A stretch of DNA of 47,176 bases from Bacteroidota bacterium. GTDB taxonomy: Bacteria > Bacteroidota > Rhodothermia > Rhodothermales > UBA10348. The stretch's first letter is position 1. The number at the start of each line of letters is the position of its first letter. The stretch is taken from contig JADFHF010000027.1 in NCBI GenBank assembly GCA_022567305.1, positions 1-47,176 of the forward strand. The letters are read 5' to 3'. This document shows, piece after piece, positions 37,058-45,603 of the stretch. A model generated the notes under the pieces. That model saw only the letters and a list, made by a program, of their open reading frames with translations. It had not been told where the DNA came from and searched no databases. Both the position numbers and the translations under genes were made by a program.

Positions 37058-37291
37058 ATGGCAACGAGAAAACGCAAAGGAATGCTGATTAAGAATACGA
37101 ACACGTATTCGGTTGAGATCGCCATGAAATCCCGGGAGATTCGTCTCGCACCAGGTGATGAGGCGTTATTAACCGCGGAAGAAGTGTTGGATCCGGAGCT
37201 TCGTGCAAAGTTGCAGATTCGGGCCGTTTCAATTGTTCGGCCTGCCACGGATGAAGAAGAGGGCGGAGAAAATGATTCGAATGATGATTGA
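37058..37291 (+). CDS. Small conserved-looking protein of unknown function
   Basis: The 77-residue protein begins with a basic stretch (ATRKRKGMLIKN), continues with a compact alpha/beta-like core (NTYSVEIAMKSREIRLAPGD, EALLTAEEVLDPELRAKLQI) and ends in a strongly acidic tail (DEEEGGENDSNDD). No membrane segment or cysteine is present. I do not recognise a family. It is the best ORF in this interval, and its mixed-charge layout looks like a real protein. It lies 39 bases before the DUF3524 glycosyltransferase, so the two may be co-transcribed. The 185 bases upstream, shared with divergent comF, hold the hairpin at the comF start and nothing else obvious. Confidence 0.6.
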   Translation: MATRKRKGMLIKNTNTYSVEIAMKSREIRLAPGDEALLTAEEVLDPELRAKLQIRAVSIVRPATDEEEGGENDSNDD

Positions 37292-37330: not shown

Positions 37331-38491
37331 ATGAAAGTACTCGCGCTCGAACCCTGGTATGGCGGCTCACACAAGGCTTTTCTGGATGGCCTGATGAAGT
37401 ACAGTCGACACGAATTCGACTCCGTGACCATGACCGCCCGATTCTGGAAATGGCGGATGCATGGTGGGGCCGTGACCATGGCCCGGAAGGCTGAGGAGCT
37501 TGTCAAGAAGGGAAATATGCCTGACGTGATCTTCGCAACAGACATGGTGAATGTTCCCGCTTTTCTTGCCTTCACGCGGCGATATTTTTCGGATGTCCCC
37601 GTGGTTCTATATATGCACGAGAATCAGCTGACCTATCCGATTCAGGAAGAACAAAAAAGGGATTTTACTTACGCTTACATCAATTATCTCTCTTGTTTGG
37701 CGGCCGACCATGTTCTTTTTAATTCTCAGTTCCACTACGATGAATTTATGGAGGCCTTGCCCGGTCTTCTCCGTCAATTTCCTGACTATACGCACTTGAA
37801 CACGGCTGCGGAGATCCGAGATCGGTGCTCCGTTCTACACCTCGGGATGAAACTGTACGATCACGACAAATTCGCCACGGACTTTACTCAGCATGAATGG
37901 GGCCCCGGTATGCGTCCGCCGATCGTCCTTTGGAATCAGAGATGGGAATACGACAAGGATCCGGAGGCATTTTTCCGCCTAATGAATCGGCTGGACGATG
38001 CGGGATTTTTATTCCGACTGATTCTGGCCGGTGAACATTTCGAGGTGCTGCCCGTCGAGTTCGAAAGAGCCTTCGAACGATACGCCGAGCGAATACTACA
38101 CTACGGCTACGCGGAGGACTTCGCCGAGTATAGCAAACTGCTCCATCGTGCCGACATCGTGATATCCACGTCGATTCACGAGTTTTTTGGGATTGCCATA
38201 CTAGAGGCGATTTATTGTGGCTGCCATCCCCTGTTACCGGAGCGACTTTCGTATCCGGAGCTCGTCCCTGCGTCGCTTCATCGGCCCCTCTTGCACGCGC
38301 CCGTCCTGTACGAGGACGAAGAGGATCTATTCTCCACCATGAAGAAGATTCTCAGCGGAAACGAGAAGCCCTTACCGCTTTCGACACTGAAAGGGATATC
38401 AAAGCACTTGGAATGGAGCCAGCATGTTGATCGATACGACGATCTGCTGGAAGAAGTAGTCCAGCGTCGTCAGGAGACTATTCGCGCGTAG
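37331..38491 (+). CDS. DUF3524 glycosyltransferase, tRNA-queuosine alpha-mannosyltransferase-like
   Basis: The 386-residue protein opens with the hallmark of the DUF3524 family, LALEPWYGGSHKAFLDGLMK, followed by ARFWKWRMHGGAVTMARKAE. This family includes vertebrate GTDC1 (QTMAN), which mannosylates queuosine in tRNA-Asp. The GT-B core is seen in YMHENQLTYPI and FNSQFHYDEFM. The nucleotide-sugar-binding half has LWNQRWEYDKDPEAFFRLMN, STSIHEFFGIAILEAIYCGC and LPERLSYPEL. The function in bacteria is not assigned by sequence: it could modify queuosine or another nucleoside, or use a different acceptor. Transfer of a mannose-like sugar is inference from the family. Confidence 0.82.
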   Translation: MKVLALEPWYGGSHKAFLDGLMKYSRHEFDSVTMTARFWKWRMHGGAVTMARKAEELVKKGNMPDVIFATDMVNVPAFLAFTRRYFSDVPVVLYMHENQLTYPIQEEQKRDFTYAYINYLSCLAADHVLFNSQFHYDEFMEALPGLLRQFPDYTHLNTAAEIRDRCSVLHLGMKLYDHDKFATDFTQHEWGPGMRPPIVLWNQRWEYDKDPEAFFRLMNRLDDAGFLFRLILAGEHFEVLPVEFERAFERYAERILHYGYAEDFAEYSKLLHRADIVISTSIHEFFGIAILEAIYCGCHPLLPERLSYPELVPASLHRPLLHAPVLYEDEEDLFSTMKKILSGNEKPLPLSTLKGISKHLEWSQHVDRYDDLLEEVVQRRQETIRA

Positions 38492-39845: not shown

Positions 39846-40589
39846 TTAGAGCTTTCGGAAAATCGAACGCAAGCGGAGTTCCCAGACTTTTAGTATCGCT
39901 TCGCGCACAATCGATTTGGTCATCTTGGATTCGCCGTCAGTACGTTCAGTAAATACGATGGGCACTTCATCAATTCGAAAACCCAACTTCCATGCTCGGT
40001 AGTTAATCTCAATTTGAAAAGAATACCCATTGGATTTAACGCGGTCCAGCGGAATCGCCTCAAGAACCCGCCGATGGATGCATTTGTAGCCCGACGTGAC
40101 ATCTTGAAGGGGAAGCCTGGTGATCATTCGAGTATAGATGCCCGCACTGTAAGAAAGAATCAATCTGGACAGAGGCCAATTCATGATTCGAACGCCGCCG
40201 ATATAGCGGGAGCCCACGACCAGATCGGATTCGCCGGTTGCCACAGGACGGATGAGTCGCGGTAGATCTTTGGGATCGTGTGAACGGTCTGCGTCCATCT
40301 CGCAGACCAGTTCAAACTTCTTATCCAAAGCAAATCTGAACCCTTCTAAGTAGGCAGTGCCCAGGCCAAGCTTTCCGGCTCGTTCAATCAGATGTACTCG
40401 CCCCGGATATTCTTGGGCAGATGCTTTCACCAGGAGGGCTGTTCCGTCCGGGGATGCATCGTCGATGACGAGGGCACTCAGATCATCAGGAAGGCTCATG
40501 ATCTCAGAAATGACGGTGGCAATATTCTCAGCCTCGTTGAAGGTTGGAACAATCACAAGCGTCTTTTGACGGAAGGAATCTTGGTCCAA
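39846..40589 (-). CDS. Polyprenol monophosphomannose synthase-like glycosyltransferase (GT2)
   Basis: The 247-residue protein is a compact GT2 enzyme of the dolichol-phosphate mannose synthase type, which moves mannose (or a related sugar) from a nucleotide sugar onto a polyprenyl phosphate. Motifs are VIVPTFNEAENIATVI, VIDDASPDGT, the DxD-like MDADRSHDP (Asp99, Asp101), VVGSRYIGGVRIMNWPLSR and DVTSGYKCIHRRVLEAIPLD. The C-terminal ERTDGESKMTKSIVREAI holds the usual basic end. No membrane span is visible, as in the shortest members. It lies 105 bases upstream of icd on the same strand, with no gene in between. The lipid-linked sugar may feed protein or envelope glycosylation. Confidence 0.9.
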   Translation of the reverse strand: MDQDSFRQKTLVIVPTFNEAENIATVISEIMSLPDDLSALVIDDASPDGTALLVKASAQEYPGRVHLIERAGKLGLGTAYLEGFRFALDKKFELVCEMDADRSHDPKDLPRLIRPVATGESDLVVGSRYIGGVRIMNWPLSRLILSYSAGIYTRMITRLPLQDVTSGYKCIHRRVLEAIPLDRVKSNGYSFQIEINYRAWKLGFRIDEVPIVFTERTDGESKMTKSIVREAILKVWELRLRSIFRKL

Positions 40590-41670: not shown

Positions 41671-42016
41671 CGTCGATGTAGCTGAGTTGCTAATGTCTTT
41701 GAGACGTTACAAGTTAACGGTTTTGTTCGACTCAACGAATCATGGGATGTTCACATCGGAGTCGTGATTCGACGTGGTACGAAGCGAAGATATCACTACA
41801 TGTAATTACAACTGAATTAAGTTCTGATTAATCTGGATACATCTGAATGACAAATGTCGTATCATGCCAACCCAGAATAGACCAATACCAATCCGTATCG
41901 GCCTATTTAAGGGCTTTTTTATCGGGGTCGGGTGTGCGGCGACTCTTGTGAGATTGGACTTAATCCATTCATCCGGTACGTCGAATCACTGTAGCAATCA
42001 TCCAAACCAATCAGGA
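41671..42016. other. Structured intergenic region between ECF sigma and pdhA
   Basis: I see no convincing gene in this divergent stretch. It contains GACTC (41729-41733) complementary to GAGTC (41759-41763), and CGAATCA (41736-41742) complementary to TGATTCG (41765-41771). The two pairs are interleaved, and a GATG-TTCA-CATC hairpin (41746-41757) sits between them. A perfect ten-base palindrome TGTAATTACA is at 41801-41810. Near 41901-41922 a weak GCC/GGGC stem is followed by TTTTTT. The pdhA reading frame is open back to 41864, but the translation there does not resemble E1 alpha and is taken as leader. Confidence 0.5.
41801..41810. promoter_or_regulatory. Palindrome TGTAATTACA, possible regulator site
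   Basis: The ten bases are a perfect palindrome in an AT-rich part of the sigma/pdhA intergenic region. Sites of this form often bind dimeric repressors. Its distance from the pdhA start at 42017 would suit a site near a pdh promoter. No regulator can be named from the sequence. Confidence 0.3.
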
Positions 42017-43189
42017 ATGGCTAACGAGATCCAGCGAAACAAGACCCAGTCAAAACGCTCCGCCAAAACATCAAAGAGTACGGCTACGCGAACACGGGCC
42101 CCTAAAACCAGAGCGCCTGCATCTACGAACGCGAATTTTCCGGACGAGATTAATATTTCGCTGACGTTTGAAACCTATCCGGCTGGAAAGTACACTCACG
42201 GCGACGTGGGGTTGAGTGACCATCAGGTCCTTTCGATGTATCAGAACATGCTTCTCCAGCGGCGATTCGAGGAACGCGCAGCGCAGATGTACGGGAAGCA
42301 GAAGATTGGCGGCTTTTTGCATCTGTACATTGGACAGGAGGCCGTTTCAACTGGCTCGGCGGCTGCCATAAACATCGGCTCGGACTCCGTCATCACAGCC
42401 TATCGCGATCATGGACTGGGCCTGGCACTCGGAATGTCTGCGAATGAGTGTATGGCCGAATTGTTTGGAAAAGTCACGGGTTGCTCGCGCGGAAAAGGCG
42501 GTTCTATGCATTTCTTTTCCAAAGAGTGTCGCCTTTTTGGCGGTCATGGCATCGTGGGCGCCCACGTTCCCGTCGGCGTAGGAATTGCATTTGCTCATAA
42601 ATACAAGGACGATGGTGGAATTTGCCTCATCTATTTCGGAGACGGTGCCGTAGGACAGGGGGCCGTTCACGAGGCCAGTAATTTGGCGTCGCTCTACGAG
42701 CTGCCTGCGATACTCATTATCGAGAATAACGAGTATGCCATGGGCACGGCGATACACCGCGCTTTTGCCGAACCCCGATTTACATATCACGCTGTGAGCT
42801 ATGACATGCCGGCGGCGGTCGTGGATGGGATGGATGTCTTCAGTGTGTACAAGGCGATTCAGGTTCATGCCGATCTCGCCCGTCAAAGGAAACCTTCCAT
42901 TCTTGAAGTGAGGACGTACCGGTATCGAGGTCATTCGATGAGTGACCCTATGAACTATCGAACGAAGGAGGAGCTAGATTCGAAGAAGAACGAAGATCCG
43001 ATCCTCAGGCTAAAGGCATATATCGTTGAGCACCAGTTGGCGACGCTCAAAATCCTGGATCAGATCGACGAGGAGGTGAAGGAAGTCGTCCTTCGATCTG
43101 TGGAGTTTGCCGAGGAAAGCCCGGTTCCCGACTTGGACACGATCTACGAAAACATTTACGAGGAAAGCGATTATCCGTACCTGGTGTAG
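42017..43189 (+). CDS. pdhA: Pyruvate dehydrogenase E1 component, alpha subunit
   Basis: E1 alpha with E1 beta decarboxylates pyruvate using thiamine diphosphate. The ATG at 42017, preceded by CAGGA, gives 390 residues. An earlier ATG at 41864 would add 51 residues unlike the family. Even so, the first 45 residues are a Lys/Arg/Thr/Ala-rich low-complexity tail (such as KRSAKTSKSTATRTRAPKTR). The core includes GGFLHLYIGQEAVSTGSAAA, AYRDHGLGLALG, GKGGSMHFFSKECRLFGGHG and the thiamine/Mg motif GDGAVGQGAVHEASNLA ending in ENNEYAMGT. The phosphorylation-loop-like YRYRGHSMSDPMNYRTKEE is also present. It heads a pdhA-pdhB-pdhC operon. Confidence 0.94.
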   Translation: MANEIQRNKTQSKRSAKTSKSTATRTRAPKTRAPASTNANFPDEINISLTFETYPAGKYTHGDVGLSDHQVLSMYQNMLLQRRFEERAAQMYGKQKIGGFLHLYIGQEAVSTGSAAAINIGSDSVITAYRDHGLGLALGMSANECMAELFGKVTGCSRGKGGSMHFFSKECRLFGGHGIVGAHVPVGVGIAFAHKYKDDGGICLIYFGDGAVGQGAVHEASNLASLYELPAILIIENNEYAMGTAIHRAFAEPRFTYHAVSYDMPAAVVDGMDVFSVYKAIQVHADLARQRKPSILEVRTYRYRGHSMSDPMNYRTKEELDSKKNEDPILRLKAYIVEHQLATLKILDQIDEEVKEVVLRSVEFAEESPVPDLDTIYENIYEESDYPYLV

Positions 43190-43239
43190 TTCAGAGTACC
43201 CTTTGATTCAGGCTACACGGTACGAACAGATTAAGTTTT

Positions 43240-44220
43240 ATGGCAGAAATTCAGTTTAGAGAAGCGATCCGACAGGCGATGGTGGAGGAGATGAGACGAG
43301 ATGAGTCCATTTTCTTGATGGGAGAAGAGGTGGCCGAATACCATGGCGCCTACAAGGTGAGTCAGGGGATGCTCGCGGAGTTTGGATCAAAGCGAGTCAT
43401 TGACACGCCAATCTCCGAGAATGGATTTTCCGGATTGGGTATCGGCGCCGCGATGAACGGGCTTCGTCCCATCATCGAATTCATGACCTTCAATTTTTCC
43501 TTCGTTGCCTTCGATCAGATCATTAACAATGCGGCGAAGATTCGGTATATGTCAGGTGGTCAGTTCCGGGTACCCATTGTTTTTCGCGGTCCGAACGGCG
43601 CCGCGGGTCAGCTCGGCGCTACGCACAACACGTCGACCGAATCCATATTTGCTACGCTACCCGGGCTGAAGGTGGTTTCACCGTCAAATCCAGATGACGC
43701 AAAAGGTCTGTTGAAAACGGCTATTCGAGATGACAATCCGGTTTTGTTTCTTGAGAGTGAAGTGATGTACGGAATGAAGGGAGACGTTTCCGAGGACGAA
43801 GATTACCTCATTCCAATCGGGAAGGCTCGCATGGCTAGAGAAGGTGAGGACGTAACGATCGTGGCCCACGGTAGGAGTTATTGGGTGGCACTAAAAGTGG
43901 CCGACAGATTGTCGGCCGACGGTTATTCGGCCGAAGTGATTGATCCCCGGACGATTCGTCCACTGGACATTGAATCCATCGTAGCGTCCATCAAGAAAAC
44001 AAACCGGTGCGTGATTATCGACGAAAGCACGCCGTTTGCGGGCATTTCGGCTGAGATCACGTATCAAATTCAGGAACTTGCGTTTGATTACCTGGATGCT
44101 CCGATCGCCCGAATTACCGCAAAGGACACGCCCGCGCCATATGCCAAGAATCTGATGGAGTACTACATGCCCGGTGAGGATGACGCGTACGAAGCGTGTA
44201 GGCGAGTGATGTATCTGTAA
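43240..44220 (+). CDS. pdhB: Pyruvate dehydrogenase E1 component, beta subunit
   Basis: The 326-residue protein completes the alpha2-beta2 E1. The N-terminal thiamine-binding domain contains REAIRQAMVEEMRRDESIFL, MGEEVAEYHGAYKVSQGMLA, IDTPISENGFSGLGIGAAMN and FRGPNGAAGQLGATHNTSTE. The C-terminal transketolase-like domain contains DVTIVAHGRSYWVALKVADR, VIDPRTIRPLDIESI and ITAKDTPAPYAKNLME. The length and residues are standard for Gram-negative E1 beta. It lies 50 bases after pdhA and 51 before pdhC, consistent with a single transcript. Confidence 0.96.
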   Translation: MAEIQFREAIRQAMVEEMRRDESIFLMGEEVAEYHGAYKVSQGMLAEFGSKRVIDTPISENGFSGLGIGAAMNGLRPIIEFMTFNFSFVAFDQIINNAAKIRYMSGGQFRVPIVFRGPNGAAGQLGATHNTSTESIFATLPGLKVVSPSNPDDAKGLLKTAIRDDNPVLFLESEVMYGMKGDVSEDEDYLIPIGKARMAREGEDVTIVAHGRSYWVALKVADRLSADGYSAEVIDPRTIRPLDIESIVASIKKTNRCVIIDESTPFAGISAEITYQIQELAFDYLDAPIARITAKDTPAPYAKNLMEYYMPGEDDAYEACRRVMYL

Positions 44221-44271
44221 CACTTTCTAAACAGAATCAGAAGACTAATCCGATTTAGAGGTACGTTCCAA

Positions 44272-45603
44272 ATGGCGATTCCGGTTGAAATGCCAAAAAT
44301 GAGCGACACCATGGAAGAAGGGGTCGTTGTCGCCTGGATGGCCGAGGAAGGTCAAGAAGTCGCGGCCGGGGATATTATTGCTCAGGTTGAAACGGATAAG
44401 GCCACAATGGATCTCGAGGTTTACGATGACGGCGTGCTGCTCAAGCGGGTCGTCGAAGAAGGCGATGCCGTTCCAATCGGTGGTTTGATTGCAGTCTTGG
44501 GAAGTAAGGGTGAGGATATTAGCGACCTACTCGCTCGTTACGCCGGCAGCAGCGGCGACGGGGCAGCTGCCACGAAGCCGGCGAAGGACCAAGATGGATC
44601 GGTGGCCGAGGCACTGGTATCTGAACCGGAACCAGAAAATAAACAAGCGTCGGCTACAGCTCCGCCGGAAGAACTCGTCACGCAAACCGGTCGCGTCAAG
44701 TCATCTCCACTCGCACGCAAACTAGCGGATGATCATGGAATCGATCTTGCGGCCGTACCGGGGACGGGTCCTGAAGGGCGAATTATTAAGAGAGATATCG
44801 AGGCGCGCATGGGAGAGTCGTTAGTGGGGAAGGGGGCGAGAAAGGACGAAGCGCGAAGGCTGCGCGTTGCAACCCTGAGTACAGGGCGGCCTTCATCCGT
44901 CGAAGGGGGATACGAATCGGTCGGCATTTCGCAGATGCGTAAAACCGTAGCCCGAAGGCTTGCGGAAAGCAAATTTGGCTCGCCTCATTTCTATCTGACG
45001 GCTGATCTCGCGATGGAGCGGGCTGTTGCCGCACGGAAGCAGATCAACGAAATAACTGAGGCGCAGGGTCTCGCCCGAATATCCTTCAACGATTTGATCA
45101 CCAAGGCTTGCGCTCATGCACTTCGGGAGCACCGGTGGATAAACGCTTCTTATCTGGAGCAGGAAGGTGAGGTTCGACTCCACAATGATATTCACGTCGC
45201 TGTCGCCGTGGCCGTTGACGACGGTTTGATCACGCCTGTGATTCGACATGCCGATGAAAAAGGACTGTCCGAGATTGCATCGGAAACCAGAGCTCTTGCG
45301 GAACGGGCCCGAGCGAAAGAGCTGCAACCGGAGGAGTATAGTGGATCGACATTCACCACGAGCAATCTTGGAATGTTTGGCATTGATGAGTTTACAGCTA
45401 TAATCAACCCGCCAAATGCCTGCATCCTTGCAATTGGAACGATCAGAGATGTCCCAGTGGTTGAAGAGGGGGAAGTCATAGCCGGGAAACGCATGAAAAT
45501 CACGTTGTCTTGCGATCACCGGATCGTTGACGGAGCAACCGGAGCACGCTTCCTCGCTACGGTCAGAAAGTATATCGAAGATCCGCTCACGTTGCTTCTG
45601 TAG
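44272..45603 (+). CDS. pdhC: Dihydrolipoamide acetyltransferase (E2) of pyruvate dehydrogenase
   Basis: E2 forms the core of the complex and moves the acetyl group to CoA. The 443-residue protein has one lipoyl domain (residues 1-80) with the lipoylated Lys43 in VETDKATMDLEV. An acidic/Ala-Pro linker follows, then a peripheral-subunit-binding domain (about 142-178: SSPLARKLADDHGIDLAAVP, GTGPEGRIIKRDIEARM) and the catalytic domain, with His416 in LSCDHRIVDGATGARF. FNDLITKACAHALREH and STFTTSNLGMFGIDEFTAII are also typical. A dihydrolipoamide dehydrogenase (E3) gene does not follow and must be elsewhere. An AGAGG stretch lies about 14 bases before the ATG. Confidence 0.95.
   Translation: MAIPVEMPKMSDTMEEGVVVAWMAEEGQEVAAGDIIAQVETDKATMDLEVYDDGVLLKRVVEEGDAVPIGGLIAVLGSKGEDISDLLARYAGSSGDGAAATKPAKDQDGSVAEALVSEPEPENKQASATAPPEELVTQTGRVKSSPLARKLADDHGIDLAAVPGTGPEGRIIKRDIEARMGESLVGKGARKDEARRLRVATLSTGRPSSVEGGYESVGISQMRKTVARRLAESKFGSPHFYLTADLAMERAVAARKQINEITEAQGLARISFNDLITKACAHALREHRWINASYLEQEGEVRLHNDIHVAVAVAVDDGLITPVIRHADEKGLSEIASETRALAERARAKELQPEEYSGSTFTTSNLGMFGIDEFTAIINPPNACILAIGTIRDVPVVEEGEVIAGKRMKITLSCDHRIVDGATGARFLATVRKYIEDPLTLLL

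Follow-up and report, generated by a model that had tools for sequence, protein, structure and literature searches.

A QTMAN-like glycosyltransferase gene of Rhodothermales bacteria, its probable link to queuosine-modified tRNA, and a lineage that keeps the gene without tgt

The gene at 37331..38491 (+ strand) of the window, the whole stretch of 47,176 nucleotides analyzed here, raises the question of which acceptor a QTMAN-like glycosyltransferase might serve in a bacterium. In the literature searched, mannosyl-queuosine is described from animals; there, mannose is alpha-linked to the allylic 3-OH of queuosine (Q) in tRNA-Asp, with QTMAN identified as the transferase (PMC12518689; PMC8654956). 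Neither bacterial mannosyl-Q nor the QTMAN family in bacteria was found reported in the literature searched, in which subscription papers were thinly covered. Since Pfam already names the domain QTMAN_N, the homology itself is not new; as far as the literature searched shows, what is new is the bacterial distribution of the family and its presence in a lineage lacking tgt.

The gene runs from ATG to TAG and encodes a QTMAN-like GT-B (GT4) glycosyltransferase of 386 amino acids. Its N-terminal domain (37334..37849, + strand) is QTMAN_N or PF12038, which we take to be the former DUF3524; it spans residues 2–173, covers the complete profile (1–168 of 168) and, with 213.5 bits against a cut-off of 25 (E 2.2e-63), is judged by this score to be far above a chance match. 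This domain carries the EPWYGGSH, WKWRMHGGA, and HENQLTYP motifs, and the DUF3524 signature noticed in a sequence-only reading of the locus is borne out in both of its parts, EPWYGGSHKAF (residues 7–17) and FWKWRMHGGA (residues 38–47). The following Glycos_transf_1 (GT4) nucleotide-sugar domain (37901..38263, + strand; residues 191–311, 38.1 bits in Pfam) holds R204-x4-K209, presumably with the donor-binding role seen in GT4 enzymes. E284 and E292 (38180..38206, + strand), read directly from the sequence, are taken by us as the EX7E motif of retaining GT4 enzymes. The protein was likened to the human enzyme by way of the Pfam model, and no NCBIfam equivalog scored above its cut-off for it. It is the sole PF12038 match in the genome of the window (3.76 Mb, 95.6% complete).

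An AlphaFold2 model based on a 75-row alignment (mean pLDDT 93.9, pTM 0.92) aligns over its whole length with GT4 enzymes of known structure, in agreement with the full GT-B domain that had been read from the sequence; it superposes on sucrose-phosphate synthase (6kih_A; Z 31.0, rmsd 3.0 over 341 residues) and MshA (3c4q_A; Z 29.6, rmsd 3.0 over 336 residues). The protein as modeled is thus a GT-B glycosyltransferase, and the enzyme would be retaining and cytosolic. A search by sequence for a solved structure of the QTMAN family returned none, the best match, 5i45, covering the C-terminal half only.

The sequence-only reading had named tgt, queA, and queG as the genes to look for in the genome, the absence of queuosine genes counting as a refutation, and all three are there (E 1.4e-142, 3.3e-119, and 6.8e-110, respectively), so that Q-modified tRNA should be available as an acceptor. 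QueH was absent from all 49 genomes searched; of the 79 genomes in which queA was sought, 49 were also searched for queG, and these include 3 of the 13 members of the tgt-less genus discussed below. In the mechanism proposed here, Tgt, QueA, and QueG would put queuosine at position 34 of tRNAs with GUN anticodons, and the QTMAN-like enzyme would then most likely transfer a hexose to one of the hydroxyls on the cyclopentenediol of queuosine. By homology, this hexose may be mannose from GDP-mannose, and the target is most likely tRNA-Asp.

PF12038 was detected in 78 of 296 near-complete genomes of the phylum. All 74 sampled genomes of the window's class, that of the window included, carry it, with four more outside the class; therefore, the QTMAN-like gene is ancestral in this class. 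Two copies occur in 15 genomes of one family, f14 (loci L002–L010, L041, and L042), and in the rows examined one of them is the class orthologue while the other falls in the tree into a second deep clade, which also holds Marinimicrobia, Flavobacteriales, Desulfuromonas, and others. The two copies might differ in the tRNA or the sugar that they use. Scanning GTDB contigs yielded at least 575 relatives, 80 of which were kept; these loci come from Rhodothermales, Balneolales, Chloroflexota, Marinimicrobia, Calditrichota, and others. The alignment of the family (A2) omits a pseudogene (G195) and two loci with stops (L109 and L136), and L160 failed the same check.

In the phylum sample, tgt is present in 292 of 296 genomes and its association with PF12038 runs counter to a link with queuosine: it is missing from 3 of the 78 genomes with PF12038 vs. 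1 of the 218 without, and present in 71 of the 74 carriers of the window's class. The distribution of tgt is patchier in Chloroflexota (239 of 300 genomes), and there tgt is found in 38 of 39 carriers vs. 201 of 261 non-carriers (Fisher p 0.0012, kinship ignored); two of these 39 PF12038 matches are weak (G543 and G595, E about 1e-11), and the homologue in G543 is only 24% identical. The one Chloroflexota carrier without tgt (G649) shows 19 changes at positions conserved in at least 90% of the family, among them W41, a residue that does not vary in 75 aligned relatives. Tgt was also found in 32 of the 33 genomes behind the distant homologue loci, one of these matches being a short fragment where a contig ends (G336); the exception, G326, is a metagenome-assembled genome of unknown completeness, and its QTMAN-like homologue keeps the motifs.

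The genomes lacking tgt in the phylum sample are three PF12038 carriers of a single genus in the window's order, g11 (G147, G195, and G199), and one genome without PF12038 (G040), and a broader TGT model agrees on these misses. The genus is probably Salinibacter, as we take G147 to be Salinibacter ruber DSM 13855. All three members also lack queG and retain queA. Within the family of this genus, f6 (27 genomes, 56–99% complete), PF12038 is present in 22 genomes and full-length tgt in 11, including only 2 of the 13 genomes of g11 (G309 and G313). Single absences of tgt are weakened because some assemblies are incomplete: completeness is 62–83% in the tgt-less G310, G311, and G312, and 99% in G147, G195, G199, G306, and G308. 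Three genomes whose tgt status is unclear (G296, G312, and G302) were omitted from the comparison of tgt-containing and tgt-less genomes. Two weak TGT-domain matches (E 4.7e-10 and 6.7e-6) lie in long frames on contig C90 of G307 and perhaps belong to a DNA-modifying relative of TGT.

Signs of erosion are seen in this genus. The orthologue in G195 (L036, 2236–3383) is a pseudogene, disrupted by an in-frame TGA and the deletion of one base; the frames of seven other tgt-less genomes of g11 are intact over the aligned part, and they have changed 2, 2, 2, 3, 5, 5, and 6 of the positions conserved in at least 90% of the family. The same count for the 11 tgt-containing genomes of f6, rows on both sides being related and hence not independent, is zero in five, one in four, and eight in two of genus g144; six of these 11 are in A2, and five were counted separately (G299, G317, and G319 with one change each, G300 and G301 with eight each). 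The homologue of the two g144 genomes (L073 and L071), which shares about 47% identity with the window protein, may be another paralogue. Such positions vary in other tgt-containing lineages too (9–10 changes in f12, nine in f16, and nine in f3), and one of the changes of the tgt-less genomes, S132T, also occurs in the tgt-containing G298 and G299. H14R was considered as an unambiguous sign that Q has been lost and rejected, because the tgt-containing lineages f3 and f16 share this Arg and f12 has Tyr. The QueA-like protein retained in the genomes without tgt and queG (4805–5851 of L161 in G147; L162; L163) departs at 4, 4, and 7 positions from those otherwise invariant in a set of 22 rows. 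As a sign of erosion this is weak, because the tgt-containing G290 and G203 have five departures each and the tgt-less G040 has seven.

Nei-Gojobori dN/dS values, calculated with the pseudogene omitted, indicate what has been kept. Among five tgt-less species, dN/dS of the QTMAN-like gene is 0.069–0.117 (10 pairs), and it is 0.044 for the tgt-containing pair G309/G313. Neighboring genes in the same tgt-less species range overall from 0.048 to 0.271: a comF-like gene shows 0.151–0.271 (0.096 in the tgt-containing pair), a gene that we read as msrA-like 0.087–0.184 (0.092), one that we read as ndk-like 0.048–0.166 (0.048), and an unnamed gene 0.141–0.161 in three tgt-less pairs (0.085). The roughly two-fold rise of the ratio is thus common to the neighbors, and the QTMAN-like gene is still constrained; purifying selection acts on the orthologue of the tgt-less clade and is no weaker than that on most neighbors.

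The gene neighborhood shows no sign of a tie to Q. Immediately upstream lies a 77-aa ORF on the same strand (37058..37288, + strand) with no Pfam family, which keeps this 5′ position within the order, in 10 of the 12 loci compared, and may be co-transcribed with the QTMAN-like gene, and beyond it are a comF-like gene and then an ABC ATPase. The downstream side has isocitrate dehydrogenase, then a GT2 enzyme resembling polyprenyl-phosphate sugar synthases (39846–40589, − strand), and, farther on, genes for pyruvate dehydrogenase E1 alpha, E1 beta, and an E2-type protein in a row (41864–45603, + strand); by our reading, mutL- and dnaB-like genes are also among these housekeeping neighbors. No Q gene recurs as a neighbor in the 80 loci, the recurrent neighbors being housekeeping genes, and no surface-glycan gene cluster recurs there either. 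The GT2 gene, two genes away and retained at 7 of the 21 Rhodothermales loci, together with a GT4 fold typical of such enzymes, would fit an ordinary glycosyltransferase for cell-surface polysaccharide or glycolipid that happens to have a QTMAN-like N-domain. However, QTMAN_N is matched very strongly and over its full length, the gene is single-copy in the genome of the window and present class-wide, and its surroundings are not those of glycan clusters, which together make such an enzyme highly improbable.

Two further readings deserve more weight. Within the tgt-less clade only, the gene could be a slowly decaying relic, tgt having been lost late or several times so that the low dN/dS reflects mostly the time before the loss. 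The pseudogene of G195, the motif changes in this clade, and the long branch of G307/G308 in the tree are in keeping with such decay, but the tgt-less rows form one clade (support 88/92), so that one or two old losses of tgt are simplest, and species pairs at dS 0.39–1.26 still show a dN/dS of about 0.1; a relic is thus conceivable for this clade, if somewhat doubtful. A broader reading is that bacterial members of the family glycosylate something other than Q-tRNA, whether another nucleoside, a cofactor, or some small molecule, with animal QTMAN as a specialized offshoot and the association with tgt a matter of shared ancestry. Selection on the orthologue in several tgt-less species, three of which were tested for queG and also lack it, speaks for this, as do the absence of nearby Q genes and the small-molecule GT4 enzymes (MshA, BshA, SenB, and BH4 glucosyltransferase) among the nearest solved folds of the model. 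Against it, conserved positions have eroded and a pseudogene has arisen in the tgt-less clade, tgt is seldom missing from carriers in other phyla, and likeness to many GT4 folds is uninformative on the acceptor. We therefore regard a family devoted to other acceptors as unlikely.

The tgt-less clade as a natural test cuts both ways: erosion of the orthologue where tgt has been lost counts for Q-tRNA as acceptor, and purifying selection in the same clade counts against a reading confined to Q-tRNA. From these sequence comparisons, we conclude that the protein appears to be selected without Q in several species of g11, yet shifted at sites conserved in the family, and that some form of the enzyme would thus do something that is selected without Q. 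Constraint on the protein would have been relaxed only in part in this sister lineage, which lacks Tgt and QueG, and this implies that its acceptor there is an additional or an altered one. In Q-making species, Q-tRNA appears the likeliest acceptor. Taken as a whole, a QTMAN-family enzyme that glycosylates Q-tRNA, with a further or changed acceptor in the tgt-less lineage, is rather probable. The sequence-only reading had left a choice between a sugar-modified queuosine and another nucleoside; the former gains from the presence of tgt, queA, and queG, and the latter also stands, since tgt-less species keep a constrained orthologue. More speculatively, glycosylated Q may be a widespread, unreported tRNA modification of bacteria, the animal enzyme may derive from a bacterial one, and the Salinibacter lineage may have taken up a new, non-queuosine acceptor after losing Tgt and QueG. 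Because Q-making genomes across the class carry the orthologue, bacterial glycosyl-Q can be tested for directly in species that can be grown, and tgt-less species with a retained, altered orthologue offer a natural control for the acceptor of the enzyme.

Among known systems, the closest is QTMAN (GTDC1), reportedly the Q-tRNA mannosyltransferase of animals (Zhao et al., Cell 2023, as cited in PMC12518689). The window protein shares its QTMAN_N and GT4 domains; unlike it, the window protein is bacterial and known from sequence, and some of its relatives live without tgt. QTGAL is a GT2-type enzyme, of a fold other than that of the window protein. The bacterial glutamyl-Q-tRNA synthetase, GluQ-RS (YadB), likewise decorates the Q cyclopentenediol in tRNA-Asp; it adds glutamate, has a synthetase fold, and is unrelated in sequence to the window protein. 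MshA, BshA, sucrose-phosphate synthase, and PimA/PimB′ have the GT-B fold in common with the window protein but are only about 10–19% identical to it and use other acceptors. In product, the predicted enzyme would resemble QTGAL, the animal Q-tRNA galactosyltransferase (PMC12518689), in that both would yield glycosylated Q.
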